A program made the translations under genes and the position numbers. Positions 16,133 through 37,308 of a DNA stretch of 43,451 nucleotides are shown in pieces. The notes beneath the pieces are model-generated. The model had not been told where the DNA came from and did not search any database. It worked only from the letters and a program-made list of their open reading frames with translations. How positions within the stretch are numbered: the stretch's first letter is position 1; each line of letters starts with the position of its first letter. The DNA comes from a bacterium (GTDB lineage: Bacteria; Campylobacterota; Campylobacteria; Campylobacterales; Sulfurovaceae): positions 1 to 43,451 of the forward strand of contig JAHJJU010000063.1 in assembly GCA_018822805.1 (NCBI GenBank). Reading direction: 5' to 3'.

Positions 16133-16168
16133 ATAAATCCTTTCTTCTTAAGCTCATCTATAATTTAT

Positions 16169-16194: not shown

Positions 16195-16202
16195 AAACTT
16201 CG

Positions 16203-16994: not shown

Positions 16995-17003
16995 TGTTTT
17001 CCT

Positions 17004-19000: not shown

Positions 19001-19018
19001 TACTCAGGAGGAGAAGCC

Positions 19019-20636: not shown

Positions 20637-21638
20637 TTATTTAACCCCTTTAGCTTCCCAATACTTACGAATAGCATCTTTGGTCTCTTTAGGAAGAGGA
20701 ACATATCCTAAATCAGTCGCTGCCTTGTCACCGTTGGTGTATGCCCAGTCGATGAATGTTGTCACTTGTTTGTTGGTTTCAATTTTTTCTGTTGGAAGAA
20801 GAACAAATGTTGCTGCAACAATTGGGTAGGAGGTGTTTCCATCCGGATCACCGATAACAGCGTAAAAGTCGTTCTCGGCTGTCCAGCTAGCATATTTTGC
20901 TGCATCTTGGAATGACTCTAATGTCGGGTTGATATATTGACCCTCTTTGTTTTCAATCTGTGCTGCTGCTAGACCTAACTTCTCTTTAAATGAGTACTCA
21001 ATGTAACCGATAGAGTTTTTAATCTGTTGAATGTTTGCCGATACACCCGAGTTTGATTTACCTGCAACCACTTTTTTAGCAGCCCATGTTGGTTTTTTAC
21101 TTACTTTAATTTTTTCGTCAAGTTTGTTCAAAAAGTAGGTAAAGTTAAATGTTGTCCCTGATTTGTCAGCTCTTACGGCCACGGTAATAGGCTCATGTGG
21201 CAGTTTTAAATCTTTGTTCTGCTCTACAATTGCTTTATCATCCCAGTACTCAATAGAACCGTTAAAAATACCTGCAATGGCTGCACGGCTAAGTTTCAAC
21301 TCACCATCTTTAACACCGTCGATGTTGTACGCTAAAACAACTGAACCCACTACGGTTGGGAACATTAAAAGTTTGTCTTTTTTAAGTGCTTTTGCATTCA
21401 GTGGTTTATCTGAACCGGCAAAATCTACCATTCTTTTACCAATGGATTTAACACCATCACCGGAACCTGTCGGTGTGTAGTTTACTTGATTTTTAGTGGC
21501 TGCATAATACTCTGAAGTCCATGCTTTGTAGATTGGTCCGGGAAATGAAGCTCCTCTACCTTTTAATTCGTCGGCATTAACAGCCGTTAATGTTACCGTT
21601 GCTATAAGGGCTGTTGTAAGAAGTTTTGAAAATGTCAT
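20637..21638 (-). CDS. pstS: Phosphate ABC transporter substrate-binding protein PstS
   Basis: 333 residues. Signal peptide MTFSKLLTTALIATVTLTAVNA, then GRGASFPGPIYKAWTSEY, the phosphate-binding TGSGDGVKSIGKRMVDFAGSDKPL, FPTVVGSVVLAYNI, VRADKSGTTFNFTYFL and NSGVSANIQQIKNSIGYIEYSF, all in canonical order for periplasmic PstS. It delivers phosphate to PstCA. A strong Pho box and TATAAT lie upstream. Its 3' end is duplicated (diverged) on the other side of hipA. Confidence 0.96.
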   Translation of the reverse strand: MTFSKLLTTALIATVTLTAVNADELKGRGASFPGPIYKAWTSEYYAATKNQVNYTPTGSGDGVKSIGKRMVDFAGSDKPLNAKALKKDKLLMFPTVVGSVVLAYNIDGVKDGELKLSRAAIAGIFNGSIEYWDDKAIVEQNKDLKLPHEPITVAVRADKSGTTFNFTYFLNKLDEKIKVSKKPTWAAKKVVAGKSNSGVSANIQQIKNSIGYIEYSFKEKLGLAAAQIENKEGQYINPTLESFQDAAKYASWTAENDFYAVIGDPDGNTSYPIVAATFVLLPTEKIETNKQVTTFIDWAYTNGDKAATDLGYVPLPKETKDAIRKYWEAKGVK

Positions 21639-21868: not shown

Positions 21869-23050
21869 TTACCACTCTACAGCAGCAGTCAACATAATTG
21901 CATCTTGATCTTTATTGTTTGTGACAAGATTTGATCCACCTTCTTTAAGGTAGTTGGCAATGAATTCAACATTGTGGTTATAGGCATAAGTTATACCGGC
22001 AATGGCTCTTTTCTTTTCACCAGAGTTATCATCCATATCAAAGAAGTCGTATCGTCCAATAGCATTCCATTTTGGAGCAATTCTGTACTCACCATTTACT
22101 GAATAACCTTTACCTTTGTACGCAGCATTCGCTTCATCAACAGTAACATATTGTGCAGCTACAAGGAACTCAGGTTGGTTGTAAACAGCATGAACACCCA
22201 TCCAGTTTAAATCTTCATTTTTATGTTTGTTGCTCAATCTGTTTTGTTGTCCAAAGAATGAAACATTGGCATAAGTACCTGATTTTTTAGACTTCTCTTT
22301 ACCTGTAGCAAGAAGGTGACCTGTTAATCTCCACTCTCCACTTAATGCTTCTCCATCTTCTACATTGTGGTAACCTTCACCATTAAAAAGACCCAATTCA
22401 CTTGAGAAATATGGAGTTTTAGTTTTAAAGTTAACACCAATATCAGCTGAGTTTGTTAAGTGTGCTGCGTTATCATCTTCTACCATAACTTTTGAAATTG
22501 AACGGTAGTTCCAAGAACCATGCTCTTCATAGTCAATCCAAGGTCGATGTGCTTGACCAAGTTCAACACCTGTATTTGGTAGAACATCGTCCAAGTAAAG
22601 GAAAGCATATTTAAGTCTAACGTTCCATGTACCGTCAAGATCTTTACCCACTGTTGCACTTCCATCATCAACATTATGCGTATCAAGTGTGATTCTCATG
22701 TAATCTTTTGGATTGTCTTCGAAGTATGCTTTTGCTTGTAAATAGTTTCTTCTGGTCTCAAATCTGTTTGTTGAGTCATCATTACCATCTTTGCTGTTGA
22801 CAAAACCAAGGTAGTGTGTTCCGGAAAAATTAATAACAGGTACGTTTGATTTAACCAACACACCTTCTGCTTTTGGTGCTTCTTTGTTTTCTAATGCACT
22901 TAATTTTGTTTGCATAGCACCCATTTGTTGTTTAAGTGCTTCTATTTCTGAATTGGTAGCATCACTGTTTTCATGGTTCATTGTTGAAGAATCGCCACCT
23001 GCGATTGCCATTGTTGCGATTGCTACTGTTGATAATATGATTTTTTTCAT
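21869..23050 (-). CDS. Outer-membrane porin, phosphate-selective (OprO/OprP-like) type
   Basis: About 393 residues from ATG 23050 (MKKIILSTVAIATMAIAGG signal peptide; GGAG upstream; the longer TTG start at 23065 covers that ribosome site). Residues ~35-55 form a short coiled coil (IEALKQQMGAMQTKLSALENK), as in trimeric porins. Then ~16 barrel strands (GTHYLGFVNSKD, ETRRNYLQAKAYFEDNPKDYMRITLDTH, LKYAFLYLDD, GQAHRPWIDYEEHG) end in LTAAVEW, an aromatic-terminated barrel. Its four-unit Pho box argues that it lets phosphate or phosphate esters through the outer membrane. Exact substrate is inferred. Confidence 0.8.
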   Translation of the reverse strand: MKKIILSTVAIATMAIAGGDSSTMNHENSDATNSEIEALKQQMGAMQTKLSALENKEAPKAEGVLVKSNVPVINFSGTHYLGFVNSKDGNDDSTNRFETRRNYLQAKAYFEDNPKDYMRITLDTHNVDDGSATVGKDLDGTWNVRLKYAFLYLDDVLPNTGVELGQAHRPWIDYEEHGSWNYRSISKVMVEDDNAAHLTNSADIGVNFKTKTPYFSSELGLFNGEGYHNVEDGEALSGEWRLTGHLLATGKEKSKKSGTYANVSFFGQQNRLSNKHKNEDLNWMGVHAVYNQPEFLVAAQYVTVDEANAAYKGKGYSVNGEYRIAPKWNAIGRYDFFDMDDNSGEKKRAIAGITYAYNHNVEFIANYLKEGGSNLVTNNKDQDAIMLTAAVEW

Positions 23051-23084
23051 GTTAAAAAACTCCAATGTTTGTTATATTGAGCGA

Positions 23085-23128
23085 AGTATAATACAAAGTG
23101 GTTACAAAACGATTACAAAATGGTTACA
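23085..23128 (-). promoter_or_regulatory. Pho box and -10 box of the porin gene
   Basis: + strand units GGTTACA (23100-23106), GATTACA (23111-23117), GGTTACA (23122-23128), 11-bp period. On the minus strand TGTAACC is followed by 9 bases and TATACT (23085-23090). Among the cleanest repeats in the window. Confidence 0.82.
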
Positions 23129-23275: not shown

Positions 23276-23944
23276 TTACCCAAATTTATAACCGATACCT
23301 CGTACAGCAGTAAAATAGTTATGCTCGTTATGAGGATCGATTTTTTTAATGAGACGATTAATGCTCACATTGATGGTACGTTTTTTGGTGGTGTTGTCTT
23401 TCCATACTGAGTCGAGGATGTATTCTCGCTCTAAAATCATGTTTTTATGTTGTATAAAAAAGGTTAAAAGATTAAATTCCAGTTTGGTTAACTCAATCTC
23501 TTTTCCATTGAGGTAGGTGCTTCTTGTGTTGATATCAAGAAGAAGGTTCTTATAGCTCAGTCGATCATGTTTAAGTCCATGCGTACGTTTGAGTAGGGCT
23601 TTACTACGATAGATAAGCTCTTTAATGTTAAAAGGTTTGGCCAAATGGTCATCGGCACCATGTAAAAAAGCTCTTTCTACATCTTCTTGACCAGCATCTT
23701 TACTAAGAACAATAATCGGAGTATCGATTCCTTTTTCTCGAAGGTATTGAATAAAATCAATACCATCAATGTTAGAGAGTTCACAATCAAGAATAATAAG
23801 ATGTATGTCCTCTAGACTGTGTTCAACATCGCTAATGGATTTAAACTCAACAACATTAAAACCCTCTTTTAAAAGATGAAGCCCCTCTTGCATGAGCAGT
23901 TCTTCATCTTCTCCTATAATCATAATATTTGCTATGCTGTTCAT
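23276..23944 (-). CDS. OmpR/PhoB-family response regulator 2
   Basis: 222 residues. Receiver with acidic residues E12/D13 (GEDEE), phospho-acceptor D53 (LIILDCELSNIDG), switch Ser in VLSKDAG and Lys in HLAKPF; winged-helix domain with KEIELTKLEFNLL, RTINVSINRLIKKIDPHNEHNY and AVRGIGYKFG. It is close in layout to response regulator 1, including TINVAINRLKNKID-like recognition helix wording, so they are paralogues with probably similar DNA targets. One base separates it from the TonB-dependent receptor stop codon, so it is the last gene of that operon. No kinase neighbour. Confidence 0.85.
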   Translation of the reverse strand: MNSIANIMIIGEDEELLMQEGLHLLKEGFNVVEFKSISDVEHSLEDIHLIILDCELSNIDGIDFIQYLREKGIDTPIIVLSKDAGQEDVERAFLHGADDHLAKPFNIKELIYRSKALLKRTHGLKHDRLSYKNLLLDINTRSTYLNGKEIELTKLEFNLLTFFIQHKNMILEREYILDSVWKDNTTKKRTINVSINRLIKKIDPHNEHNYFTAVRGIGYKFG

Positions 23945-23945
23945 A

Positions 23946-26900
23946 TTAAAACTTTGAAGAGATTCCTACACTAATGGTTTGACCTGTTTTAAACGTATTG
24001 GTTACATTTGTTCCTTGTCTCCATACGGTTTCATCATCAAGGATGTTTCCTATTTTGATTTTCATATCAAGATTGTCGATTCCAAAAGTATCGAGATTTT
24101 TGAATTTCTCTTGCCATACTAGGTCAAGTAGTTGAGGTGGTGTCTCATAATAGTCTGGGTAAGCGTATTGGTCAATAACCCCAATTTTACGAATTCTTTC
24201 ACCCATTTTGTTGTACGATAGGGCAATGTTTCTTTTATCATTATCGTACCCAATGGTGGTGTTGAGAACAATTTGTGACAAACCTTGTAGTTGTCTATGG
24301 TTGGTACTGTAGGTTGCCAGTTGTTCCTCTCTTAGTGTTACATCCGATTCGGTATAAGAGAAGTTTCCTGATACATAATAGTTTGAGTAATCTTTTCCTA
24401 AGAAATCAAAATTTTTACGTCCATCTACTTCAACTCCATAAAGTATGGCTGAATCAGCATTATCATACGAGTAGATTGGTAGTGATGACGATGGTCGAAT
24501 GACATCTTCAATTGGTTTATCTAAATATTTAAAGAACAATCCCCCTTTTATATTTTCACTATCAGAGATGTAGTGAGAGTATTTAAAGTCAAGGTTATAG
24601 AGATTTGTATTTTCTAGATTTGGGTTACCGACAACGGTTGCCACATCATAAGGGTGAAAGTACTCACCATTGGTAAACTCTCTAAGGTCCGGGACAATAT
24701 AGGTTTTTGAAACAGCCACATCAAAATGGTTGTCTTCATCATATTTGTATTTAAGTGAAGCACTCGGATAGATACCTTTAACAGCCAATGACTCCGGAAT
24801 CCTTTGAATAAGACTTCTTAATGTCATATCGGGGTTGGTACTGTCCAGTTGATACTGGTAAACAGTTTGAGAGAGGTCAACAAATTTAAGTCCAAAGGTT
24901 GTTTCTATGTTGTCATATGGTTTAAGAAAAGTACTTCCAAAGATACCAAATTCATCTACGTTAGCATCAAAGTAATCAGCAGCTTTAAAGGCAGAACTTA
25001 CAATAAACCCTCTTTCATTATAGGGAATATTGTTTCGTACATACTGGTAATAGAACGATTCAATATCTGAGGTTAAATCAGCATCATTAACATCAACGGC
25101 ACCAATAGGTCTGAGGTTAAATTTACTTTGTCGTGAAATTCTCTCTTTGCTACTGTAGTTCATTCCAAACTCTACGGTATCTTCATCACTTAACCAGTCT
25201 ATAAAAATTTTGTTTTTTACAAACATGGCATAGAGGTCATCATCTGATTTTAATCTGTTGGCAACGTGAGGTGCACTGACGGCATTGTTAATGTGTGTTA
25301 CCCCTTGCTCTTCAATATAGGCATAATTAAAGTTGTTTGGCTGATAGAGATTCGCTTGTGCATACTCCAATCCAAATTCGGCTTTTGATTTTTTGTTGAA
25401 TATTTCATAATCAAATTCACCGTTAAGTTGGTCTACATTTAAGATTCTCTCTTCCCAATCCAGATAGTAGTTGGTCTGTTGGTCATAGTTTGAACCGTAA
25501 ACCCCATCAACAATTCTGGTTGCTTTTACAGCATTTCTCGTATAGAGTTTGGTGTATTTTACTTTCAATAGGTCAAGGTAGTTGTATCCTAAGTTAAAAC
25601 TTCCACCTTGATAGTAAGATGAATACGATTTCGCATTGGTACCATATTTATCAGCTTCGCTATGGAGTTGCCCATCAGTACCTATATCGTAGTCATAAAA
25701 GTTTTCAACGGTATAGGTATGGTCTTGAGAGTAACCGTAGTTGGCAAATACTGAGAGGCTGTGTTCCTCATTGATTTCAAAGTTTTTTGAACCCTCTATT
25801 GATCCACTAAGACCTATAGGAAGTTTTCGTGTATAGGTGTTGTAGTTTCTATCGACAAAGTCCGTGGTGTATTGAACCAATTGCTCTTCGGTAAAATATT
25901 CAGGAGTAAAGGATTTAATTCTTTCCCCTACATTAACGGCACCGGCTGCCAAAATATCATCGACAATCGCTCGATACCCATTATCATAACCAAGCCAATC
26001 CGTTTCACTTCCATAGTAGTTGTCACTCTCTTTACCCGTGTTACTGTTGGCAGAGGTTCCTAATGAGACCTTAATAAAATCCTCTTTAGAGGTATCTTTG
26101 GTACGAATATCAATATAACCTCCACCAAAATTACTAGGAATATCAGCAGAAGCACTTTTTTGAACTTTTAATGAACCAATCACCGATGATGGAAAAATAT
26201 CCAGAGGAACGGTTCGTTTTGTCGGATCAGGTGAAGGTAGTGGCATGGAGTTCATTTCAATGTTTGAATAACGCTCTCCAAGACCCCTTACATAGATGTT
26301 TTTCCCACCAACAAGGGTAATACCTGTAACCCTTTTAAGGGCAGCAGCAGCATTTCCATCACCTTTCTTTTCAAACTCTTCTGAACCCAAAATATTTGAG
26401 ATGGCTGAAGCCTCTTTCTCTTCCGTCATAATGTCAGCAATACTTCCCTCAATTTTAGGGGCAAGCACCACAAACTCTTCAAGCTCTAAACTCGCAGGTG
26501 TTAATTTGACGGTTTTTGAAATTGTAGCACCTTTAGCCACATTAATGTCATTAATGGTTTGAGCTGAGTAGGCAGAGTGAACCACAGAGATACTCACGGC
26601 AGAATCAGCAGGAATCTCTACCGAGAAACGACCGGCATCATCGGTTCGCGTATCGATAGAGGTTCCTTTTACAAAAACTCTCGCTCCGGTAATCGGGGTT
26701 TGTCTATCTGAGCTAAGGACTCTACCCTTTAGTGTTCCTTTACCTTTAGCTTTTTGATCTTTCTTTTTATCTTCAACAACTTCTCCAACAGGTGTGTCAA
26801 TGTCGATTTCAGGTTCACTCATGGTGAATGATGCCACTACTTGGGTATCTTTTCCCTCTTTAATGGTGACGGGTTTTTTGAAATACCCCAAGTTTTTGTT

Positions 26901-27137
26901 GTTGGCAGATTTTCCAAAAATTTCAATTTGGTGTTCTCCTACTGAAAGGATTACTTTAACAGAACCATCAGCATCGGTTCTAATGGTCTTTTTTGAATCA
27001 ATGATAATCTCATTGTTTGATAAGGGTTTACCACTTTTTAGCATAAAAACTGAAAGTGTTCCTACCTCTTGTGCGTAAGCAAAAGGAGGTATAACGGCAA
27101 ACAGTGAAATGGTAAATAGTTTTAAATGTCTTGTCAT
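23946..27137 (-). CDS. TonB-dependent outer-membrane receptor with two N-terminal beta-sandwich domains
   Basis: About 1063 residues from ATG 27137, whose A overlaps the stop of the TPR gene (TAATG). Signal peptide to ~AYA; a first carboxypeptidase-regulatory-like domain (GTLSVFMLKSGKPLSNNEIIIDS...), a charged linker (VVEDKKKDQKAKGKG), a second CarboxypepD_reg domain (GTLKGRVLSSDRQTPITGARVFVKGT), then plug (SAISNILGSEEFEKKGDGNAAAALKRVTGITLVGG, RGLGERYSNIEMNSMPLPSPDPTKR) and a 22-strand barrel ending GQTISVGISSKF. Receptors with this plug wording take up large or complex substrates. Co-operonic with its own TonB-ExbBD set under a Pho box, so the cargo is probably a phosphorus source (inference). 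Confidence 0.88.
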   Translation of the reverse strand: MTRHLKLFTISLFAVIPPFAYAQEVGTLSVFMLKSGKPLSNNEIIIDSKKTIRTDADGSVKVILSVGEHQIEIFGKSANNKNLGYFKKPVTIKEGKDTQVVASFTMSEPEIDIDTPVGEVVEDKKKDQKAKGKGTLKGRVLSSDRQTPITGARVFVKGTSIDTRTDDAGRFSVEIPADSAVSISVVHSAYSAQTINDINVAKGATISKTVKLTPASLELEEFVVLAPKIEGSIADIMTEEKEASAISNILGSEEFEKKGDGNAAAALKRVTGITLVGGKNIYVRGLGERYSNIEMNSMPLPSPDPTKRTVPLDIFPSSVIGSLKVQKSASADIPSNFGGGYIDIRTKDTSKEDFIKVSLGTSANSNTGKESDNYYGSETDWLGYDNGYRAIVDDILAAGAVNVGERIKSFTPEYFTEEQLVQYTTDFVDRNYNTYTRKLPIGLSGSIEGSKNFEINEEHSLSVFANYGYSQDHTYTVENFYDYDIGTDGQLHSEADKYGTNAKSYSSYYQGGSFNLGYNYLDLLKVKYTKLYTRNAVKATRIVDGVYGSNYDQQTNYYLDWEERILNVDQLNGEFDYEIFNKKSKAEFGLEYAQANLYQPNNFNYAYIEEQGVTHINNAVSAPHVANRLKSDDDLYAMFVKNKIFIDWLSDEDTVEFGMNYSSKERISRQSKFNLRPIGAVDVNDADLTSDIESFYYQYVRNNIPYNERGFIVSSAFKAADYFDANVDEFGIFGSTFLKPYDNIETTFGLKFVDLSQTVYQYQLDSTNPDMTLRSLIQRIPESLAVKGIYPSASLKYKYDEDNHFDVAVSKTYIVPDLREFTNGEYFHPYDVATVVGNPNLENTNLYNLDFKYSHYISDSENIKGGLFFKYLDKPIEDVIRPSSSLPIYSYDNADSAILYGVEVDGRKNFDFLGKDYSNYYVSGNFSYTESDVTLREEQLATYSTNHRQLQGLSQIVLNTTIGYDNDKRNIALSYNKMGERIRKIGVIDQYAYPDYYETPPQLLDLVWQEKFKNLDTFGIDNLDMKIKIGNILDDETVWRQGTNVTNTFKTGQTISVGISSKF

Positions 27138-28417
27138 TATATACACTCCAACGAATTCATTTTACATTTTTCGATACTTTTACGAATAACGGTTGCTTTT
27201 GAGAAGAGTGCATCATCGCTTATTTTCTTAAAATGTTCTTCAGCTTGCTCATAATCTTTAACCATGTAGTAGGCATAGGCTAAGGCATAACGCAAGTTGT
27301 CATCTGCCAAAAGACCATAACGACCCAATCCATCTTTTAGACCAATTATTTTTTCAAATTCACCACGGTCAACAAAGATGGCTATTTTTTGTTTAAGCTT
27401 CTCTTTATTATCGGTAAGTCTAGAGTTCAAGTAGAGTGCATGAGATAGATCTTTAGCTCTACGGTGTATCTCTGCTGCCTCTTTGGTGTAGTTGCTATCG
27501 TAGTACGATGCCTCTTCAAAAAGATGTGCTGTTACATGAATCATGTCTCGTTTTAAGTAGGCATGACCCAGTAACATTGAGAGTTTTGCTGTAGTAGGAA
27601 ACTCTAGTTTTGCCTCTTCTAAAACCTTGATAGCCGATTGAAGTTCACCTCCACTTATAAGCATTTGTGCCAAGGTAACGTACTCTTTAGCCGATGTTTC
27701 ACCTTTTGCCATATACGCTTTTGATGCATCAATGGCTGCTTGATAGAGTTTTAACTCTGCAAGGTAGTAGAACTTCTGTTTAAGCAGTCTTTTGTCATCA
27801 GGGAAAAGCTGTGAACCTGTGCTTAATGCTTCTAGGGCACCGTTATGATCTTTTAACTTCCAGTAACATTCTGCTCTAAGGGTATAGAGCCCGGCTTGTT
27901 TACGTCCCATTTCACCGGCAGCATCCAATTCCTGAATGGTGTTGGCATAATCTTTAAGCTTATAGTACGATTTGGAAAGGTGAATATGAAGTTTCCCCAA
28001 TTTCTCTGCACGTATTTTTTCTGCATCAAATACCGGTGCAACTTCTACTTTTTTAGGGGCTTCTTTTTTGTCCGATAAGAGAGAGAATAGGTACGCTTTA
28101 TGTGCTTTTACTTTTGGAGGTGCTTTATAGACTTTTACTTTAGTGGCTTCTACGGCTTGGTTAAAGTTTCCAATAGATTTTTGGTACTTTTTCTCTTTAA
28201 CATCCATAACACCCAATAGCGTAAAGTACTTTGCTGCATCAAAATTTTCAGCTTTAGTATCAACTTCATCAAGTTCTTCTCGTGCTTTGTCAAATTTTCC
28301 ATCAAAAATCATCATGGTAGCCACCGACATATGATCAACTGCAGGAGCAGTTTTGGCATCAATTGGCATCATAGACAAAGCTAAGACCAATGGTAAATAT
28401 TTTATATTTTTTAACAT
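27137..28417 (-). CDS. Periplasmic TPR protein of the TonB system
   Basis: 426 residues with a signal peptide (MLKNIKYLPLVLALSMMPIDAK) and about nine tetratricopeptide-like helical pairs: FDGKFDKAREELDEV, KKYQKSIGNFNQAVE, SKSYYKLKDYANTIQELDAAGEMG, AECYWKLKDHNGALEAL, ELQSAIKVLEEAKLEFP, LAYAYYMVKDYEQAEEHFKKI. A Lys/Pro-rich insert lies at ~95-130. TPR proteins regularly follow tonB in TtpC-type TonB operons and are thought to hold the complex together in the periplasm. 14 bases from tonB; coupled to the receptor. Confidence 0.82.
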   Translation of the reverse strand: MLKNIKYLPLVLALSMMPIDAKTAPAVDHMSVATMMIFDGKFDKAREELDEVDTKAENFDAAKYFTLLGVMDVKEKKYQKSIGNFNQAVEATKVKVYKAPPKVKAHKAYLFSLLSDKKEAPKKVEVAPVFDAEKIRAEKLGKLHIHLSKSYYKLKDYANTIQELDAAGEMGRKQAGLYTLRAECYWKLKDHNGALEALSTGSQLFPDDKRLLKQKFYYLAELKLYQAAIDASKAYMAKGETSAKEYVTLAQMLISGGELQSAIKVLEEAKLEFPTTAKLSMLLGHAYLKRDMIHVTAHLFEEASYYDSNYTKEAAEIHRRAKDLSHALYLNSRLTDNKEKLKQKIAIFVDRGEFEKIIGLKDGLGRYGLLADDNLRYALAYAYYMVKDYEQAEEHFKKISDDALFSKATVIRKSIEKCKMNSLECI

Positions 28418-28431
28418 CTTTTACTCCTCCT

Positions 28432-29076
28432 TTAGTTAAAGTCAAATCGAACTTTTTGTTTTGCCCAAACCCTTACAGCTTGACCTTTATATTTGGCCGG
28501 TGAAAATCTCCAGTTTCGAACACCGTTGAGTGCAACGGCATCAAAAATTCCTGCAGGGAAGGCTTCAAGTACTTGAGCTGTCTCGACACTTCCTTGTTTG
28601 TCAATGAGAACATTAACAATGACATAGCCTTTAATACGCTTTTTCATCGCCGATGCCGGATAATCCATTTTCGAACGTGATAAAACTTTTGGTTTAACAT
28701 CAACGCTGTTTCCTGTCATGATGGTATCTTCAGAGATCTCATCGAGTAACTTGTTTGTATCGCCACCAATACCCTCACTACCAAACTCCGGTATGTCCAT
28801 CTCAATACCATTTAAACTTGCACTTAAGTCCGGAAGTGGAGCTTTTGGTGGAGCTTTTCTTGGTTTTGGTTTAGGCTTCGGTTTAGGCTTGGTCGCTTTT
28901 TTAGTAGCTTTTTTCTCCATCTTGACATAGCGAGACTCTTTTTTGACTTTTGCCTCTTTCTCTTTAACGGGTTTGTTAAAGGCAATGACCAAAGTCATCA
29001 TCAGTATCCCACCCAAGAACATAAAGAAAAAGGCTAAAAGAGCTTTTCTAGCTGTGCCATATTTTCTTATACTCAT
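28432..29076 (-). CDS. tonB: TonB energy-transducing protein
   Basis: 214 residues: one N-terminal membrane anchor (~9-33, LLAFFFMFLGGILMMTLVIAF), a Lys/Pro-rich periplasmic spacer (KATKPKPKPKPKPRKAPPKA), and the TonB C-terminal domain (MDYPASAMKKRIKGYVIVNVLIDKQGSVETAQVLEAFP...ALNGVRNWRFSPAKYKGQAVRVWAKQKVRFDFN, read in pieces). It carries proton-motive energy from ExbBD to the receptor encoded two genes downstream. 6 bases from exbD. Confidence 0.93.
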   Translation of the reverse strand: MSIRKYGTARKALLAFFFMFLGGILMMTLVIAFNKPVKEKEAKVKKESRYVKMEKKATKKATKPKPKPKPKPRKAPPKAPLPDLSASLNGIEMDIPEFGSEGIGGDTNKLLDEISEDTIMTGNSVDVKPKVLSRSKMDYPASAMKKRIKGYVIVNVLIDKQGSVETAQVLEAFPAGIFDAVALNGVRNWRFSPAKYKGQAVRVWAKQKVRFDFN

Positions 29077-29082
29077 GATGGC

Positions 29083-29490
29083 TTATCCCATCTCTTTAGT
29101 CGTCGAGACGGCAACATCTTTGGCTCCACTCATACGGCATTCATCAACCACATCTATAAGTTTGTTTACCGGAATGTTGTCATCTGTAATCACCAGTACA
29201 TTTTTGTCGGTGGCTGTTCGTAAGAGATCTCTCACTTTACTTTGAATGGCCCATACTTTTACAGCTTGGTTATCAATGTAGACTTCTCCTGTATTGTCGA
29301 TATAGACACGAACAACTTTAGAGTCAGCTTTACTGGCACTTGAAGCAGAAGGTCTATTGATATCCAATTTCATATCTTTTACAAATGTGGTTGTAACCAT
29401 AAAAAAGATAAGTAAAATAAATACCATATCAATCAATGGTGATACATCAACATCGGTTGGATTATCGGTTCGTCGTTGTCTAAATCTCAT
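29083..29490 (-). CDS. exbD: ExbD biopolymer transport protein
   Basis: About 135 residues from ATG 29490 (MRFRQRRTDNPTDVDVSPLIDMVFILLIFFMVTTTF); AAAGGAAGAG precedes it. A longer frame to 29532 only reads through the end of exbB. The membrane-embedded Asp of the proton path is present (SPLIDMVF), followed by the periplasmic domain with VYIDNTGEVYIDNQAV and VLVITDDNIPVNKLIDVVDECR. The first codons overlap the 3' end of exbB by 11 bases. Confidence 0.93.
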   Translation of the reverse strand: MRFRQRRTDNPTDVDVSPLIDMVFILLIFFMVTTTFVKDMKLDINRPSASSASKADSKVVRVYIDNTGEVYIDNQAVKVWAIQSKVRDLLRTATDKNVLVITDDNIPVNKLIDVVDECRMSGAKDVAVSTTKEMG

Positions 29491-30106
29491 GTTGCTCTTC
29501 CTTTGTAGATAGAATATCTGTAATTTGCTCAAAATCTAAAGCAAATTGTTCCTCTTTTTTATCAAGTATTTTCCCTAAAATTAGCCCCGGTACAGCAACA
29601 ACCAACCCCAGTTCAGTTGTAAACAGTGCTTTAGAGATACCTCCTGAAATACTCGCTCCTTGTGAGAACATAGAGCCTGATGTTAAGGCATCAAAGGTTT
29701 CAATCATCCCCATAACGGTTCCAAGTAGCCCCACCAACGGTGCTAAAATAACAATGGTTTTTACCAATGTCGAGTATTTTCTAATGGCATTATCATACGG
29801 AACAAGAGCATCATAAATGTAGTTTCTGCATTTTAATCCCAGCGTTTTAGCACTTTGTTCAGCGTAGATGGCATCAGCAATGGCATAGTCAAGAAGACCT
29901 CTCATCTTCTGTTCTTCTCCACGTTTTTCATGTTTGTCAATTTGTCGACGAACGTTTCCTAGTGTTCCCCTTTGTAGGACAAGGTATCTATAACCCAGTC
30001 CATACCAAAGGAAGAGATTGAGTATAAAAAGTACCCACATCACTGCTCCTCCGGTATTCATAAAGTTGACAAACAACTCTACGTATGTTTGTATTGAGTC
30101 TATCAT
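29480..30106 (-). CDS. exbB: ExbB/TolQ-family proton channel protein
   Basis: 208 residues, three membrane helices: ~17-40, ~115-140 (IVILAPLVGLLGTVMGMIETF, with the family GLLGTV motif) and ~160-180 (GGISKALFTTELGLVVAVPGLILG, with the pore Thr). Shorter than the preceding ExbB-like subunit; together they match the TtpC/ExbB2 pair of Vibrio-type TonB2 systems. Overlaps its neighbours by 4 (upstream) and 11 (downstream) bases. Confidence 0.92.
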   Translation of the reverse strand: MIDSIQTYVELFVNFMNTGGAVMWVLFILNLFLWYGLGYRYLVLQRGTLGNVRRQIDKHEKRGEEQKMRGLLDYAIADAIYAEQSAKTLGLKCRNYIYDALVPYDNAIRKYSTLVKTIVILAPLVGLLGTVMGMIETFDALTSGSMFSQGASISGGISKALFTTELGLVVAVPGLILGKILDKKEEQFALDFEQITDILSTKEEQHEI

Positions 30107-31425
30107 TTTGCATTGTGCTTTTCAAAAATGTTAACAATATGAAGAGCACTCTGCTCCATAGAGTCTTTAATCCCTTGTGCCCAACCGGAGATAAGGTTTC
30201 CTAGTAGTAAAAGAGGAATGGCAACAATAAGACCAAACATCGTTGTAATCAAGGCTTCAGAGATACCACCTGAAAGCATTTTAGGATCACCTGTACCGTA
30301 CTCGGTAATCATGTCAAAGGTTGCAATCATACCTGTTACCGTACCCAAAAGACCCAGTAGTGGAGCAACAGCTGCCAGTACCATTACAAATCCACCAAAC
30401 TTATCAATATGTCCACTCTCATTTAGGATATTTTCCATAACAATGTCTTCAACGTGTTCTCTGTTTTTGTTAATGTTTCTAAGTGTTGCTTTAACCACTC
30501 TGGCTGCTGATCCTTTAAAGTTTTGAATGGCATCTAAGGCTTGGTGTCCTTCACCGTTTTCAACTTTGTAGGCAACAATATTTGAAATTTTAGTAACGTT
30601 TGAACCGGCTCTTAAAAGAATAACCACTCTGATAATCAACAGTAGAAGACCTAAAAGACCCAATGCCAAAATGATGTAACCGATAACACCTCCACCTTTA
30701 AGCACGTCATCAAATGTTTTCTCTTTTTTATACTCGACCTCTTTGTCAAGGTTTTCATAAACAAAAACATCAAGTGAATCTAATGGTTTACCTGCATAGA
30801 GTGCTTTTGCATCATCCGATGACCCAACAGCATTCCATAGTTTGTATTCACCGTTACCGGCAGGAGCCAAAGCACCGGCTGCTTGATCGGACACACCATA
30901 AGCAGCAATGTTACCAACTTTTACAATTTCCCCTTGGGCAACTGATCCATCAGGAAGGTAAAATTTTCCGTTTTCAGTTTGAATAGAAGAGAGCTTAGCA
31001 TAAAGTTTTGATGCTTCATTAAAGGCAATTTCCATCTTTTTCGCATTGGTGGTTTTGTTGCTGTCGTCCAGTTCAATTCCATATTCATCCAGTGTTATTT
31101 TGGCTTGCATCACCACAGAACCTGAAATTTCTGAATTGTTTTGAACATCAGAGAGTTTTTCAGAGAGTTTGTCCAGTTTGGCTTGTCTCTCTTTTAAGGC
31201 TTCACTAAGGTTCAAATATGTTTCTTGAAGGTTTTTTGTTTTTGCTTTTGCTTTTTCAATGTCGGCATTTTGTTGGCTTTTCTCTTTGCTTAATCGGCTT
31301 TGAAGTTCTGATTTTTGTGCTTTTAAGAAGGTATACTCTTTGTTGTAGGCATTGCTTAATTCATCTGCTTGAATGGATGCTGTAAGCACTAATAGTGAGA
31401 TTAAGGCTGTGTAAAACGTGTTCAT
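30103..31425 (-). CDS. ttpC: TtpC-like large MotA/TolQ/ExbB-family protein
   Basis: 440 residues. A cleavable signal peptide (MNTFYTALISLLVLTASIQA) is followed by a coiled coil (~25-105, KSELQSRLSKEKSQQNADIEKAKAK...), a small periplasmic beta-domain (~140-235), a first membrane helix (~247-272, GGGVIGYIILALGLLGLLLLIIR in pieces) and the ExbB core with LAAVAPLLGLLGTVTGMIATFDMI and GGISEALITTMFGLIVAIPLLLLGN. This long periplasmic extension distinguishes TtpC from normal ExbB; TtpC is essential for TonB2-dependent transport in Vibrio. Its ATG overlaps the DUF3450 stop (TAATG). Confidence 0.88.
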   Translation of the reverse strand: MNTFYTALISLLVLTASIQADELSNAYNKEYTFLKAQKSELQSRLSKEKSQQNADIEKAKAKTKNLQETYLNLSEALKERQAKLDKLSEKLSDVQNNSEISGSVVMQAKITLDEYGIELDDSNKTTNAKKMEIAFNEASKLYAKLSSIQTENGKFYLPDGSVAQGEIVKVGNIAAYGVSDQAAGALAPAGNGEYKLWNAVGSSDDAKALYAGKPLDSLDVFVYENLDKEVEYKKEKTFDDVLKGGGVIGYIILALGLLGLLLLIIRVVILLRAGSNVTKISNIVAYKVENGEGHQALDAIQNFKGSAARVVKATLRNINKNREHVEDIVMENILNESGHIDKFGGFVMVLAAVAPLLGLLGTVTGMIATFDMITEYGTGDPKMLSGGISEALITTMFGLIVAIPLLLLGNLISGWAQGIKDSMEQSALHIVNIFEKHNAK

Positions 31426-32195
31426 TATTTACTCTCCGATAAAATTAAGGCATTTGGTAGGCTAAAGAACCCTGTACGAATCTGTTTTTGTAAGTCATCA
31501 AAAAGAGCTACGATTTTTTTGACATCTTCTTTGTTGGTTACTACGTTGTATTTGTAAATTGGTCCCTCTTTGCTTACAAAACCGACTTTGTCATTAGGTG
31601 TGGCAAAATACATCATGACTGAACCCAATTTAGCGATCTTAGCCATTACCGGTTCACCATTAATTTCAATCTCTTGTTTAAAAAGACCAATCTCTTTGGT
31701 TAAACGAATGTTGTCATCGTAACTTGCCCATGTTTGAGCTAGGGCTTTTTCTTCAGTGATGTCACCATTGCTCAGTTGGGTTTTAATTTTTTCTACATCA
31801 GCAACTCTCTGGCTTACTTTAAAAGGGATTCCTGTCTCAATGGTTGCTTTTAAACGGTCAAGTGCAGAGACTAGAAGAGGTTTAATGCTCTCATTTTTAT
31901 TTGAAGCAGCTGCTATTTTCTCTTCGGCTTTAGTCAATTCACTCTCAGCCAACTTCAGAGCCGTCTCTTGACGATTGATTTGTGCCTCACTGTCTGCACT
32001 CTGCATGGCATTTGATTTCATTTCAGCTTTGTACATCTCTTTATTGTCATCAATCTTGGTATAGAGTGCTTCTACATCAGCTCTAAGTTTCATGATTGAG
32101 TTAACAATGTTTGTGTTTTCAGCATAAAGTGAAGATGTCCCCAATACTCCACAAGCTACGGTTGAAAGTAGTACTCTCTTATATGTTTTAAACAT
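31425..32195 (-). CDS. DUF3450 periplasmic coiled-coil protein
   Basis: 256 residues: signal peptide (to ~LYA), long coiled coil (~30-115, MKLRADVEALYTKIDDNKEMYKAEMKS..., INRQETALKLAESELTKAEEKI), then LDRLKATIETGIPFKVSQRVADVEKIKTQLSNGDITEEKALAQTW and a C-terminal beta-part with AKLGSVMMYFATPNDKVGF. This is the standard first gene of TtpC-TonB2 operons; its partner is thought to be TtpC. A four-unit Pho box and -10 box lie directly upstream. Confidence 0.88.
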   Translation of the reverse strand: MFKTYKRVLLSTVACGVLGTSSLYAENTNIVNSIMKLRADVEALYTKIDDNKEMYKAEMKSNAMQSADSEAQINRQETALKLAESELTKAEEKIAAASNKNESIKPLLVSALDRLKATIETGIPFKVSQRVADVEKIKTQLSNGDITEEKALAQTWASYDDNIRLTKEIGLFKQEIEINGEPVMAKIAKLGSVMMYFATPNDKVGFVSKEGPIYKYNVVTNKEDVKKIVALFDDLQKQIRTGFFSLPNALILSESK

Positions 32196-32224
32196 TTATA
32201 CTCCAATGTAAAATTTAATACTTT

Positions 32225-32279
32225 ATAGTATTAAGAAGTGGTAACAATAAGGAAACACTATGATTACAAATCGGTTACA
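32225..32279 (-). promoter_or_regulatory. Pho box and -10 box of the DUF3450-TonB operon
   Basis: + strand units GGTAACA (32240), GGAAACA (32251), GATTACA (32262), GGTTACA (32273), each 7 bases plus 4, period 11. On the minus strand TGTTACC is followed by 9 bases and TACTAT (32225-32230). The -10-proximal DNA from 32193 is nearly identical to that of the triple lipoprotein gene. Confidence 0.8.
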
Positions 32280-32386
32280 TTAATAAAAATGAAAAAATAA
32301 ATGTTTCAAATATAATCATTATATTTAATGGGTGTTTTAAAATGTGTTTTAAGTAAAAGAGTTTGAGGATGTTAGGTGTAGTGATA

Positions 32387-32410
32387 GACAAGTAGAATTT
32401 TCTACTTGTC
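32387..32410 (-). terminator. Hairpin downstream of the triple beta-helix lipoprotein gene
   Basis: GACAAGTAGAA (32387-32397) and TTCTACTTGTC (32400-32410) make a perfect 11-bp stem, 25 bases past the stop codon and ahead of the next promoter. Confidence 0.7.
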
Positions 32411-32434
32411 CAAAGAAGATATTTTATAGTTTTA

Positions 32435-35400
32435 TTAATTTGCAGTGTTTCCTGTACCGGCAGTAAATTTAGCTTCGAGTTCTGTAGCCGAATCACCAGA
32501 GAACCTTGTGTCTGTTGAAGAACCGGCAAGTACTACATTTTCAAAAGAGGTGTTTGCAATATCAGCTGTACCTTTAGAATGAATTGTACCGGCACTATCA
32601 ATAGAGTTATCGGTTACTGTACCATTTTTAAAGTGTCCACCGATACCATCATTCTTAAAGTAAATACCACCCTCTTTAACGGAAGTAGTTTGTGTAATGT
32701 TAAAGGTATCAAAGGTAGCAGCTGTTGTTCCTGACATCTCAATGGCAGCATTCCCTCCTGTCTGGTTAATGGTTAAGTTGGTTACCGTACCGGCATATCC
32801 ATCATCAATATCAAAGTGGTCATCGGTACACTCTGAGATGGTAATGTTTTTCATATTTACCGTACCACCCCATGCTTCAACACAGTCATCATCGGATTTA
32901 GTAACCGTAATATTTTCGATGGTTGTACCTGAACCGACACCCACTAAACTAAGACCGTTTATCTCTTTGTCGGTCTCCATAGTAATACCCGAGTTCAAAA
33001 TTTGAACATGCTTTAATGACCCTGAGTTATCGGTTAAATCAGAACTGTCTGCAGTAAATGCAGAGTTTACTTCATACGCTTGAACTTGGTCATTACCGGC
33101 TTTACCGATAAGGGTTAAACCACCCCATTGACCTACGGCTGCCGTACCACCGTCATACGCTGTTTCAGAAGTAAAGATAATAGGTTGTTCTGAAGACCCT
33201 TCAGCCATAATTTTAGCACCCTTATCAATAATCATGTAAGAAGTATTGTCACCTGTACCATCTTTACCAGCAATGGTTGTTCCCGGGTCAATTGTTAAGG
33301 TCGCTCCATCTTTTACTGCTACAAGACCATCGATTACCCAAGTTTTTGTAAAGATAAGGGTTGTGTCCGTTGTAATTTCTCCACTTAGGGTTGCTTTTGG
33401 CTTTGTTCCTGTTGAACTGTTTTCTGTACCTGAGTTAAACTCAGCTTCTAATTCCGTTGCTGAGTCACCTGTAAATTTAGCATCGGTTGAAGAGCCATCT
33501 AAAATAACATTGGTAAAGGATGTATTGGCAATATCAGCAGTACCCTTTGAATGAATAGTACCAGCACCGTCCGTTGAGTTATCAGTTACAAAACCATTGA
33601 TAAAGTGTCCACCAACACCATCTTGCTTAAAGTAGATACCTCCCTCTTTTTTAGAAGTTGTTTGGGTAATAACAAAAGTATTAAAGGTAGCAGCTGTCGT
33701 TCCTGACATTTCAATAGCAGCATTACCTCCTGTCTGGTTAATCGTTAAGTTTGTTACCGTACCGGCATAGCCATCATCAATATCAAAGTGATCGTCGGTA
33801 CACTCTGAAACGGTGATGTTTTTCATATTTACTGTACCACCCCAAGCTTCAACACAGTCATCATCTGACTTAGAAACGGTTATATCTTCAATGGTTGTAC
33901 CTGAACCAACTCCCACAAGGCTAAGACCATTAATCTCTTTATCGATTTCCATGGTGATACCGGAATTTAGAATTTGAACATGTTTTAATGTCCCAGAGTT
34001 GTCTTCTAAATCTGAATCATCAGGAACAAATGCTGTGTTTACTTCATACGCTTGAACTTGTGAGTTACCGGCTTTACCGATAAGGGTTAAGCCACCCCAT
34101 TGACCTACGGCTGCCGTACCACCGTTATAGGCTGTTTCTGAAGTAAAGATAATCGGTTGACTCTCTGTACCTACAGCCATAATTTTAGCACCTTTATCAA
34201 TAATCATATAAGAAGTATTATCTCCCGTACCATCTTTACCAACAATGGTTGTTCCGGCATCAATCGTTAATGTCGCTCCATCTTTTACAGCTACCAGACC
34301 ATCAAGTACCCAGATTTTAGTATTGATTAAGGTTGTATTGGATGTAATATCTCCACTAATGGTCTCTTTTTCTTTTGGTGCTTCAATCGTATTACCTGTA
34401 CCGGCATTAAATTTAGCAAGTAGTGTATCAGCAGAGTCTCCAGAAAATCTTGTGTCTGTTGAAGAACCAGCCAATGTTACATTTTCAAATGAAGTGTTTG
34501 CAATATCAGCTATTCCTTTAGAATAGATAGTCCCAGTACCATCAATAGAGTTGTCTGTTACCGTACCATTTTTAAAGTGACCACCGATACCATCATTTTT
34601 AAAGTAAATACCACCCTCTTTAACGGAAGTTGTTTGAGTAATGGTAAAGGTATCAAAAGTAGCATGAGTCGTACCCGACATTTCGATACCGGCATTACCG
34701 GTTGTTTGATTAATTATTAAGTTGCTTACGGTACCGGCATATCCGTCATCAATATCAAAGTGATCATCTGAACATTCTGAAAGCGTTACATTTTTAAGGT
34801 TTACCGTACCACCCCAAATCTCAACACAGTCATCATCTGATTTATTTACAGTAATGTTTTCGATGGTTGTACCTGAACCAACACCTACAAGGCTAAGACC
34901 GTTTATCTCTTTATCGGTCTCCATGGTGATACCTGAGTTTAAGATTTTAACGTATTTTAATGAACCTGAGTTATCAGTTAAGTTTGAACTATCAGCTTCG
35001 AATGCAGAATTAACTTCATAAGCTTGAACTTGAGTATTACCGGCTTTACCGATAAGGGTTAAACCACCCCATTGTCCCCAGGCAGCCGTTCCTCCATCAT
35101 AAGCAGTTTCTGAAGTAAAGGTAATTGGGTTAGCAGCAGTACCTTCAGCCATAATTTTGGCACCTTTATCAATAATCATGTAGGAGGTATTGTCACCGGT
35201 ACCGTCTTTACCAACGATGGTTGTTCCGGCTTCGATGGTTAATGTTGCTCCATCTTTTACAGCTACCAGACCATCAAGTACCCATGTTTTGGTTGCTGTT
35301 AATGTGGTATCGGTTGTAATGTCTCCACTAAGTGTCTCTTTTGGTTTAAGTCCGGAAGCCTCACTAAGATGATCGATGGCATCTTCTTCGCTTACAATAG

Positions 35401-35950
35401 CACCGGCATCAATACCTGCTTTAGCAGCTAACGCTTCAACCGTTTCACTTAATGAATCACTTGCAGTAAGTTTATTTGCTTTGGTGGTGTCAATGGTAAT
35501 TCCATTACTTGGGTCACCGTCAGAGTCAAGTGACTGTAAAAGTCTGGCAATTTTAATAACTTGAGCATTGGATGTTTCTGCTTTACTCACCCCTACAAGA
35601 TCTTGTGGAAGTATTTGACCACCACTGCTGTAACTGCTAATGGTTCCCAGTGTCATGCCTCCGAGTTTAAAAGTTACAGGAGCAGCTTTACATTCAAATG
35701 CTCCATCACTACCTGTTACCCCGATTGTCTCTCCACTGTCACATTCATAATTGACACCTTGAACAGCTGAATCAACAAGATAACCTTTGGTTTTTGTTGT
35801 ACCGTTATCCGTGTAGATATAGACTTGATTGGGTGATGATTTACCTTGATCAATACATCCTGTCATCGTTACAGCACCTAAAAATAGGGTAGATAACGCA
35901 ACATGTGTACTCTTGAACGTCTTGAATACGCTTTTGTATCTGTTTAACAT
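32435..35950 (-). CDS. Large lipoprotein with three tandem beta-helix units
   Basis: 1171 residues. Signal peptide with lipobox VTMTGC (C32). An N-terminal beta-sandwich (~45-130, KGYLVDSAVQGVNYECDSGETIGVTGSDGAFEC) plus a helical segment (~130-200) is followed by three ~325-residue units. Each unit reads SGDITTDTTL...TWVLDGLVAVKDGATLTI, AGTTIVGKDGTGDNTSYMII, DKGAKIMAEG, GQWGGLTLIGKAGN, NSGITMETDKEINGLSLVG, SDDDCVEIWGGTVNLKN, DDHFDIDDGYAGT and GIYFKNDGIGGHF. Short-turn, Gly/Asp-rich strands suggest right-handed parallel beta-helices with acidic, possibly Ca-binding, turns. It is the paralogue of the single-unit gene at 36104-37198. Pho box upstream. Probably surface-exposed; function unknown. 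Confidence 0.8.
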   Translation of the reverse strand: MLNRYKSVFKTFKSTHVALSTLFLGAVTMTGCIDQGKSSPNQVYIYTDNGTTKTKGYLVDSAVQGVNYECDSGETIGVTGSDGAFECKAAPVTFKLGGMTLGTISSYSSGGQILPQDLVGVSKAETSNAQVIKIARLLQSLDSDGDPSNGITIDTTKANKLTASDSLSETVEALAAKAGIDAGAIVSEEDAIDHLSEASGLKPKETLSGDITTDTTLTATKTWVLDGLVAVKDGATLTIEAGTTIVGKDGTGDNTSYMIIDKGAKIMAEGTAANPITFTSETAYDGGTAAWGQWGGLTLIGKAGNTQVQAYEVNSAFEADSSNLTDNSGSLKYVKILNSGITMETDKEINGLSLVGVGSGTTIENITVNKSDDDCVEIWGGTVNLKNVTLSECSDDHFDIDDGYAGTVSNLIINQTTGNAGIEMSGTTHATFDTFTITQTTSVKEGGIYFKNDGIGGHFKNGTVTDNSIDGTGTIYSKGIADIANTSFENVTLAGSSTDTRFSGDSADTLLAKFNAGTGNTIEAPKEKETISGDITSNTTLINTKIWVLDGLVAVKDGATLTIDAGTTIVGKDGTGDNTSYMIIDKGAKIMAVGTESQPIIFTSETAYNGGTAAVGQWGGLTLIGKAGNSQVQAYEVNTAFVPDDSDLEDNSGTLKHVQILNSGITMEIDKEINGLSLVGVGSGTTIEDITVSKSDDDCVEAWGGTVNMKNITVSECTDDHFDIDDGYAGTVTNLTINQTGGNAAIEMSGTTAATFNTFVITQTTSKKEGGIYFKQDGVGGHFINGFVTDNSTDGAGTIHSKGTADIANTSFTNVILDGSSTDAKFTGDSATELEAEFNSGTENSSTGTKPKATLSGEITTDTTLIFTKTWVIDGLVAVKDGATLTIDPGTTIAGKDGTGDNTSYMIIDKGAKIMAEGSSEQPIIFTSETAYDGGTAAVGQWGGLTLIGKAGNDQVQAYEVNSAFTADSSDLTDNSGSLKHVQILNSGITMETDKEINGLSLVGVGSGTTIENITVTKSDDDCVEAWGGTVNMKNITISECTDDHFDIDDGYAGTVTNLTINQTGGNAAIEMSGTTAATFDTFNITQTTSVKEGGIYFKNDGIGGHFKNGTVTDNSIDSAGTIHSKGTADIANTSFENVVLAGSSTDTRFSGDSATELEAKFTAGTGNTAN
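32438..35340 (-). repeat. Three ~975-bp direct repeats within the lipoprotein gene
   Basis: Equivalent points such as the codons for SGDIT fall near 35330, 34350 and 33380 on the + strand, giving units of about 975 bases (325 codons). Long near-identical DNA tracts persist between units, so duplication is fairly recent or maintained by gene conversion. Confidence 0.75.
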
Positions 35951-35980
35951 TTATACTCCAATGTAAAATTTTAATACTTT

Positions 35981-36035
35981 ATATTAGTACGAAGTGGTAA
36001 CAAGAGGGAAACACGATGGATACAAAGTGGTTACA
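35981..36035 (-). promoter_or_regulatory. Pho box and -10 box of the triple lipoprotein gene
   Basis: + strand units GGTAACA (35996), GGAAACA (36007), GGATACA (36018), GGTTACA (36029), period 11 bp. On the minus strand TGTTACC, 9 bases, TAATAT (35981-35986). The block from the start codon through the repeats is closely similar to 32193-32280. Confidence 0.8.
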
Positions 36036-36052
36036 AAAGAAGAATGGGAGAA

Positions 36053-36079
36053 GATAGTGTTAAAAATCTTAACACTATC
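36053..36079 (-). terminator. Terminator hairpin of the single-unit lipoprotein gene
   Basis: GATAGTGTTAA (36053-36063), loop AAATC, TTAACACTATC (36069-36079): perfect 11-bp stem 25 bases after the stop. Confidence 0.7.
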
Positions 36080-36103
36080 TTTGAAAATTAACTTTTAGAT
36101 TAA

Positions 36104-37198
36104 TTATTTAGTATTACCTGTACCAGCATCAAATTTAGCTTCAAGTTCTGTAGCAGAATCACCAGTAAATTTATCATCAGCACTTGATCCAGCAAGGGTT
36201 ACATTTGTAAATGAAGTGTTGTTGATATCAGCAGTACTTTTTGAATGAATAGCTCCGGCACCATCGTTTGCATTGTCTGTTACCGTACCATTTTTAAAGT
36301 GTCCACCGATACCATCATTTTTAAAGTAGATACCACCTTCATCATCTTCAGTAGTTGTTTGAGTAATGGTAAATGTGTCAAATGTAGCAGCCGTTGTTCC
36401 TGACATCTCAATAGCAGCATTACCTGTAGTTTGAGTAATTGTAAGGTTTGTAACGGTACCGGCATATCCATCGTCGATATCAAAGTGGTCATCTGAACAT
36501 TTTGAAATGGTTACATTTGTTAAGTTAACGGTACCACCCCAGATTTCAACACCATCATCATCAGAACGCTCTACTGTAATGTCTTCGATGGTTGTACCTG
36601 AACCAACACCGACAAGGCTAAGACCATTAATCTCTTTGTCTGTTTCCATGGTGATACCAGAGTTTAAGATTTTAACATGTTTGAGTGAACCGGAACTGTC
36701 TGTTAAATCTGAACTGTCAGCAACAAATGCCGTGTTTACTTCATAGGGTTGAACTTGAGCATTACCGGCTTTACCAATGATGGTTAAACCACCCCATTGA
36801 CCCCATGCAGCCGTACCACCATCAACAGCTGTTTTCGATGTAAAGATAATAGGTTGTGCAGCTGTACCTTCAGCCATAATTTTTGCACCTTTGTCAATGA
36901 CCATATAAGAAGTGTTGTCACCTGTGCCATCTTTACCTGCGACAGTTGTACCGGCATCAATTTTTAAAGTAGTACCTTTAATCGATACCAAACCATCAAT
37001 AATCCAAGTTTTATCAGCTGTAAGTTGTGTACATGTAGTAATGTCACCAATTAAAGTAGTTGTACTTGGTGTTGTGTAGGTCGTACATGTAGATGGATCA
37101 GTTGTTCCTCCGTCAGTTGTTTCTCCTCCACTACTACCACATCCTGTGAATACCAATGCTGCTGCTGCAACTGAAAGTAAAATGTTCGTCGTTTTCAT
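36104..37198 (-). CDS. Single-unit beta-helix lipoprotein
   Basis: 364 residues: signal peptide MKTTNILLSVAAAALVFTGC with lipidated C20, a short Gly/Thr-rich linker, then a single beta-helix unit that aligns end to end with each unit of the 1171-residue neighbour (TWIIDGLVSIKGTTLKIDAG, GQWGGLTIIGKAGN, NSGITMETDKEINGLSLVG, SDDDGVEIWGGTVNLTN, DDHFDIDDGYAGTVTN). The Cys of the DDDCVE motif is Gly here. Six-unit Pho-box array upstream. Proteins of this unit type are common as hypothetical exported proteins in marine bacteria; no activity is known to me. Confidence 0.8.
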   Translation of the reverse strand: MKTTNILLSVAAAALVFTGCGSSGGETTDGGTTDPSTCTTYTTPSTTTLIGDITTCTQLTADKTWIIDGLVSIKGTTLKIDAGTTVAGKDGTGDNTSYMVIDKGAKIMAEGTAAQPIIFTSKTAVDGGTAAWGQWGGLTIIGKAGNAQVQPYEVNTAFVADSSDLTDSSGSLKHVKILNSGITMETDKEINGLSLVGVGSGTTIEDITVERSDDDGVEIWGGTVNLTNVTISKCSDDHFDIDDGYAGTVTNLTITQTTGNAAIEMSGTTAATFDTFTITQTTTEDDEGGIYFKNDGIGGHFKNGTVTDNANDGAGAIHSKSTADINNTSFTNVTLAGSSADDKFTGDSATELEAKFDAGTGNTK

Positions 37199-37231: not shown

Positions 37232-37308
37232 ACTTTAACCCAGTAAGGTAACAGAAATGCTACAAAGCAATTACAATACGGCTACAGCAATATTACCATT
37301 TTGTTATC
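37232..37308 (-). promoter_or_regulatory. Six-unit Pho-box array between lipoprotein and olsF-like genes
   Basis: + strand units at 37247, 37258, 37269, 37280, 37291 and 37302 (GGTAACA, TGCTACA, AATTACA, GGCTACA, TATTACC, TGTTATC), all exactly 11 bp apart. On the minus strand TGTTACC, 9 bases, TAAAGT (37232-37237) serves the lipoprotein. On the + strand TATACT (37318-37323) lies 9 bases beyond the last unit, so divergent control of the olsF-like gene is possible. Confidence 0.78.

Follow-up and report, generated by a model that had tools for sequence, protein, structure and literature searches.

Surface lipoproteins encoded beside TonB-dependent receptors have been described from the low-phosphate responses of Caulobacter and Flavobacterium. 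In Caulobacter crescentus, the gene order is elpS (cc0170)-cc0171 followed by the genes of a type II secretion system (T2SS), and ElpS, of which the co-occurrence with cc0171 was already noted, is a surface lipoprotein that is produced at low phosphate, released by the T2SS, and linked to raised extracellular phosphatase activity (PMC2996285). Moreover, the PhoB regulon of Caulobacter includes TonB-dependent receptors as well as the T2SS (PMC11208175). The Flavobacterium lipoproteins FI-FIII are induced by low inorganic phosphate (Pi), display homology to ElpS, and gave polygalacturonase-like models, and one of them adjoins a receptor while another is encoded with phoBR (PMC8115612). In Vibrio vulnificus, TtpB2 (255 amino acids, aa) and TtpD2 (425 aa) are essential for the function of the TonB2 system (PMC6957404). 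This paper describes a locus of a Sulfurovaceae genome in which a beta-helix lipoprotein-receptor pair and a TtpC-type TonB motor stand together, and which is predicted to serve the acquisition of phosphorus. The locus lies at positions 23276-37198 of contig JAHJJU010000063.1 (assembly GCA_018822805.1); the entire stretch analysed, of 43,451 nucleotides, is referred to as the window and is part of a 2.79-Mb genome, to which all genome-wide counts refer.

All genes of the locus are on the minus strand. The first, BHL1 (36104..37198), encodes an acidic one-unit right-handed beta-helix lipoprotein of the ElpS type (364 aa, lipobox FTGC, Pfam Beta_helix 1e-7), and the second, BHL3 (32435..35950, 1171 aa), encodes a lipoprotein with three beta-helix units that are 77-81% identical to BHL1. 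These precede genes for a TtpB-like DUF3450 protein (31425..32195, 256 aa, PF11932 1.2e-27), a TtpC-like protein of the MotA/TolQ/ExbB family (30103..31425, 440 aa, PF01618 2.2e-27, included in a TtpC tree), ExbB (29480..30106, 208 aa, PF01618 1.3e-21), ExbD (29083..29532, PF02472 2.2e-29), TonB (28432..29076, 214 aa, PF03544 1.3e-22), a TtpD-like TPR protein (27137..28417, 426 aa, TPR_19 8e-13, with the position and length of TtpD2), a TonB-dependent receptor (23946..27146, 1066 aa), and, as the last gene, an OmpR/PhoB-family response regulator (23276..23944). The receptor comprises a CarboxypepD_reg domain, a TonB-box-like motif (EEFVVL) that is invariant across nine aligned sequences, a plug, and a barrel, and searches of solved structures by sequence matched only its shared carboxypeptidase-like region. 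Because the gene junctions measure -53 to +14 bp, the genes from DUF3450 to the regulator are regarded as one coupled operon, as had been proposed in the original prediction, which was made from the sequence alone. The TtpC-type assignment made there holds as well, since the cluster contains all six TonB2 components (TtpB, TtpC, ExbB, ExbD, TonB, and TtpD) and its TtpB and TtpD match their V. vulnificus counterparts in domain and, almost exactly, in length (PMC6957404). The Vibrio system differs in serving several siderophores, whereas the window has a single receptor within the operon, as well as Pho-type promoters.

The predicted Pho-type sites consist of TGTWWC units at 11-bp spacing, two of which make up a 17-bp pair. 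On the minus strand, such arrays are located approximately 60-90 bp upstream of BHL1 (37248..37286, weaker than the other arrays), BHL3 (35986..36035, three exact 17-bp pairs in 11-bp register), and TtpB (32230..32279). BHL3 and TtpB have almost the same promoter sequence, and the promoter of BHL1 has the sites and is otherwise different, so that the near-identity formerly ascribed to the promoters of the two lipoprotein genes applies to BHL3 and the operon instead. The genome contains 17 exact matches to the 17-bp pair, of which 6 fall inside the window; several of those elsewhere are intragenic and were taken as chance, and a few are intergenic without an evident phosphate link. When at most one mismatch was allowed, three-unit arrays were matched 7 times genome-wide, with some overlap between the matches; 6 of these are in the window and span four promoters. 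With up to three mismatches the pattern gave 148 matches versus 178 for a reversed control, and therefore only the stricter matches were used. Across eleven Campylobacterota loci, 17 of the 21 upstream regions contain Pho-type pairs (28 in total; the expectation is 0.4 from the background rate and 0.3 from dinucleotide shuffles, none of which gave more than 2). On account of this excess, phosphate control of the module, which the original prediction had only inferred from a Pho box, is well supported at the level of sequence.

Conservation was assessed in 298 genomes of the class (Campylobacterota), the genome of the window included. The receptor is found in 10 of them, from two families, and all ten keep the gene order TtpB-TtpC-ExbB-ExbD-TonB-TtpD-receptor and the Pho-type sites at the module promoters. 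The co-occurrence of receptor and lipoprotein, the analysis of which had been proposed originally, is strict: the lipoprotein is present in nine of the receptor genomes and in no other genome of the sample, and in the remaining receptor genome the sequence breaks off at TtpB, where the contig ends. In three genomes (G191, G288, and G282) the module has pst genes and a gene for a PhoB-like regulator as neighbours. None of the ten receptor genomes encodes PhoA, and PhoX-like genes are present in all ten, none of them beside the operon. The nearest named relative consists of pieces of a Sulfurovum metagenome-assembled genome (MAG), of which the receptor fragments are 80-86% identical, in line with the Campylobacterota-like origin proposed earlier, and a scan of genome contigs with the receptor retrieved three partial loci only, all from Campylobacterota. 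A canonical, much higher-scoring DUF3450 protein occurs in eight genomes, among which G060 alone carries both types. In the G060 locus, the second, canonical TtpC-TonB set (2673-13112) has as its neighbours a PhoX-like gene and the gene of what is probably a second TonB-dependent receptor, and it is possibly another phosphate-related TonB cluster. The genome G295 has an extra, stand-alone beta-helix lipoprotein gene (6282-7562 of its locus) outside the operon and between housekeeping genes.

In an unrooted TtpC tree, which contains long branches, a branch with 100/100 support separates all 11 Pho-linked TtpC proteins of Campylobacterota from the Vibrio, the gammaproteobacterial lipoprotein-linked, and the other Campylobacterota TtpC proteins. 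A possible reading of this split is that a TtpC motor was recruited to the receptor-lipoprotein pair on two separate occasions, although a joint clade with the gammaproteobacterial lipoprotein-linked proteins was not rejected (approximately unbiased test, p-AU 0.09). The tree also bears on whether the module takes up iron, haem, or another metal in the manner of Vibrio TonB2 and is merely located in a phosphate island. Such a role would fit the TtpB-TtpD components, which are known from Vibrio iron uptake, and the acidic motifs of the lipoproteins, which could bind metals; it is nevertheless highly improbable, as the Pho-type promoter sites are conserved in all carrier genomes, the linkage to pst or phoBR recurs in distant lineages, and the Pho-linked and Vibrio-type TtpC proteins are set apart by a long and fully supported branch.

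The lipoprotein-receptor pair is also encountered in other bacteria. Homologues were sought in plasmid records, and a receptor homologue was found at no more than 3.4 kb from the lipoprotein gene in 20 of the 21 records that hold a lipoprotein homologue. The alphaproteobacteria Indioceanicola and Sphingomonas have the genes in the order lipoprotein-receptor-T2SS, and the window pair appears homologous to ElpS/CC0171, a link that rests on the common gene layout. Both the window and Caulobacter pairs have a lipoprotein gene beside that of a TonB-dependent receptor and are associated with a phosphate-starvation lipoprotein; the Caulobacter pair is followed by T2SS genes, whereas none adjoin the window pair, which instead has a TtpC-TonB motor in its operon and both a one-unit and a three-unit lipoprotein. 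That this is a known, ElpS/CC0171-type pair was missed in the original prediction. Pseudoalteromonas and Alteromonas carry the pair together with a complete DUF3450-TtpC-ExbB-ExbD-TonB-TPR set, which in Alteromonas adjoins phoB-phoR-pstS, and the combination is therefore not unique to the window; however, the receptors of these clusters are only 24-27% identical to that of the window and their TtpC proteins are elsewhere in the tree. Pho-box scans of the gammaproteobacterial loci yielded marginal matches only, and Pho sites are therefore not claimed for them. The Flavobacterium clusters PUSIII and PUSIV resemble the locus by their description, with low-Pi lipoproteins that are modelled as beta-helices and encoded beside a TonB-dependent transporter or phoBR, but a TtpC motor is not reported there (PMC8115612). 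The SusCD-like PusCD of Flavobacterium likewise combines a Pho-induced receptor with a surface lipoprotein (PMC8115612), which is SusD-like, whereas the window lipoproteins gave no SusD matches and only beta-helix matches of note. The analogy to phosphate systems of Bacteroidetes that had been drawn for the locus is thus apt, in that low-Pi receptors with beta-helix-like lipoproteins have been described (PMC8115612). No published description of the pair together with a TtpC-TonB set was found in the literature searched, and the literature found on DUF3450 with TonB is not about phosphate. On a Hymenobacter plasmid, the pair is near genes for a DNA/RNA non-specific endonuclease and a porin, a context that hints at nucleic acid as a source of phosphorus in that lineage.

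These data lead us to consider it probable, if far from certain, that the locus encodes an ElpS/CC0171-type acquisition module of the outer membrane that is under Pho control and most likely imports a phosphorus compound. The arguments are the gene content and its coupling, the conserved Pho-type sites, the strict co-occurrence in Campylobacterota, the invariant TonB-box-like motif, and the linkage to pst or phoBR in the window, in three relatives, and independently in Alteromonas. To these are added the lipoprotein-receptor neighbourhood in plasmid records, including the T2SS-linked alphaproteobacterial layout, the published low-Pi induction of ElpS and FI-FIII, and the receptors of the Caulobacter PhoB regulon. 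When phosphate is scarce, a PhoB-type regulator would bind the TGTWWC arrays and turn on the lipoproteins, the receptor, and the private TtpB-TtpC-ExbB-ExbD-TonB-TtpD motor together. The lipoproteins, for which we infer a location at the cell surface, would help to capture or process a phosphorus compound that is too large or too scarce for a porin; the receptor would pull this compound into the periplasm with the use of proton-motive force that the TtpC-type motor transmits, and periplasmic phosphatases would free Pi for uptake via PstSCAB or PiT. Both the inward direction of transport and the chemical nature of the substrate are to be read as conditional in this scheme.

Several observations weigh against import of a phosphorus compound under Pho control. 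The Pho-site motif was itself derived from sequence in this analysis and its sites are predicted; the operon regulator is below the NCBIfam PhoB equivalog cut-off (TIGR02154, 138 versus 296 bits); and the operon contains no phosphatase gene. In Caulobacter, transcription of cc0171 was reported to be constitutive, ElpS was still produced after deletion of cc0171, and the intracellular phosphate was without measurable change (PMC2996285). Finally, the lipoproteins are strongly acidic (pI 4.2 for BHL1 and 4.05-4.79 in 17 of 17 homologues), which disfavours direct binding of polyanionic phosphate compounds. The proposed direct binding of polyphosphate or nucleic acid by the lipoproteins is accordingly not sustained, also because ElpS, the studied protein most closely related to them, is linked to extracellular phosphatase activity and not to ligand capture; the acidity leaves binding through a metal bridge, an enzymatic function, or a role as a partner for these proteins.

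As a sub-case of import, the substrate could be a metal-phosphate complex, e.g., calcium-, iron-, or lanthanide-bound phosphate or phytate, that is bound via the acidic beta-helix motifs, so that mineral or chelated material would serve as the phosphorus source. The homologues share two acidic motifs, DDxxExxGG and a stretch of the DDxxD type, from Bacteroidota to Campylobacterota, and these, together with the low pI, would fit metal-bridged better than direct polyanion binding. This possibility is very unlikely in its specific form, as acidic motifs are also present in enzymes that act on sugars and adopt this fold, and such enzymes appear among the fold matches. A structure model built from four lipoprotein units of the window (mean pLDDT, the predicted local distance difference test score, 66) aligned with right-handed beta-helix proteins at a Z of approximately 20, including many polysaccharide-acting enzymes and phage tailspikes; being modest, the model supports the fold only and not an activity on polysaccharides. 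Searches of solved structures with the lipoprotein sequence returned nothing credible.

The main rival to import is an export or display function, in which the receptor and the TonB motor dedicated to it would bring the beta-helix lipoproteins to the surface, and these would themselves perform the phosphate-related work, for example as phosphatase partners. Oar of Myxococcus, which has the same kind of CarboxypepD_reg domain, needs ExbB/ExbD/TonB to secrete the PopC protease (PMC6434023), and a display function would also agree with the near-inseparability of receptor and lipoprotein and with the linkage of the alphaproteobacterial pair to the T2SS, which releases ElpS and in place of which a TtpC-TonB set stands next to the pair in gammaproteobacteria and Campylobacterota. 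It is nonetheless unlikely: the CarboxypepD_reg architecture is common, being found in 28% of receptors (PMC6434023), most of which are presumed importers, and receptor and T2SS coexist in Caulobacter. Besides, all ten Campylobacterota receptor genomes encode a GspD-like secretin, elsewhere than beside the pair, that could export the lipoprotein, so that a T2SS route stays available. More specifically, it is distinctly unlikely that the TtpC-TonB motor and receptor provide a TonB-powered outward display of the lipoprotein during phosphate starvation that substitutes for the Caulobacter T2SS, in which case it would apply to Campylobacterota and marine gammaproteobacteria alike.

Downstream of the operon, a phosphate island continues at 10.8-23.1 kb, and the range given in the original prediction thus covers all genes named there and stops short of this island. 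On the minus strand it comprises a probable outer-membrane porin-like protein (21869..23065, a putative identity without family match, preceded by a Pho-type array at 23090..23128 on the same strand), pstS (20637..21638, TIGR00975 301 bits, above the cut-off, with a Pho-type site at 21687-21703), pstC-pstA-pstB-phoU (15467..18671, with an array at 18715-18753), a PiT/PHO4 phosphate permease (12627..14162, PF01384 4e-113, with Pho-like sites at 14200-14228), and a second PhoB-like response regulator (11785..12456), and on the plus strand polyphosphate kinase 2 (PPK2; 10838..11782, PF03976 7e-98). The porin-like protein had no credible match in searches of solved structures by sequence, and its structure model was poor (pLDDT 32). 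A HipA-like gene with a helix-turn-helix (HTH) domain (18992-20596, plus strand) is situated between pstC and pstS.

Elsewhere in the genome, a regulator encoded on contig 67 scored 174 bits with the PhoB profile, also below 296. Contig 67 contains, at 5271-15342, a glycolipid-synthase-like glycosyltransferase, two LpxH-like metallophosphoesterases, a PhoX-like gene, and a PhoB-like regulator, with a Pho-type array preceding one of the two metallophosphoesterases; this is a probable second phosphate-stress locus, the gene content of which resembles PlcP/Agt lipid remodelling. The operon regulator of the Sulfurovum MAG (2196-2897 of its locus) has Asn at the position of the expected phospho-acceptor Asp, a hint of phosphorylation-independent control in that relative.

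The receptor-lipoprotein pair is already known from Caulobacter and Flavobacterium, where it is poorly understood, and what is new is its Campylobacterota version with a divergent TtpC engine. TtpC-TonB systems are known for iron, and a conserved, phosphate-controlled system with a single receptor in Campylobacterota would, if the present interpretation is true, mean that TonB energy is spent on phosphorus acquisition. Moreover, the module offers a compact setting for testing the role and transport direction of the ElpS-type pair, which is widespread and unexplained. Finally, carriage of the module can serve to predict which members of the Campylobacterota may be able to exploit sources of phosphorus other than free phosphate.

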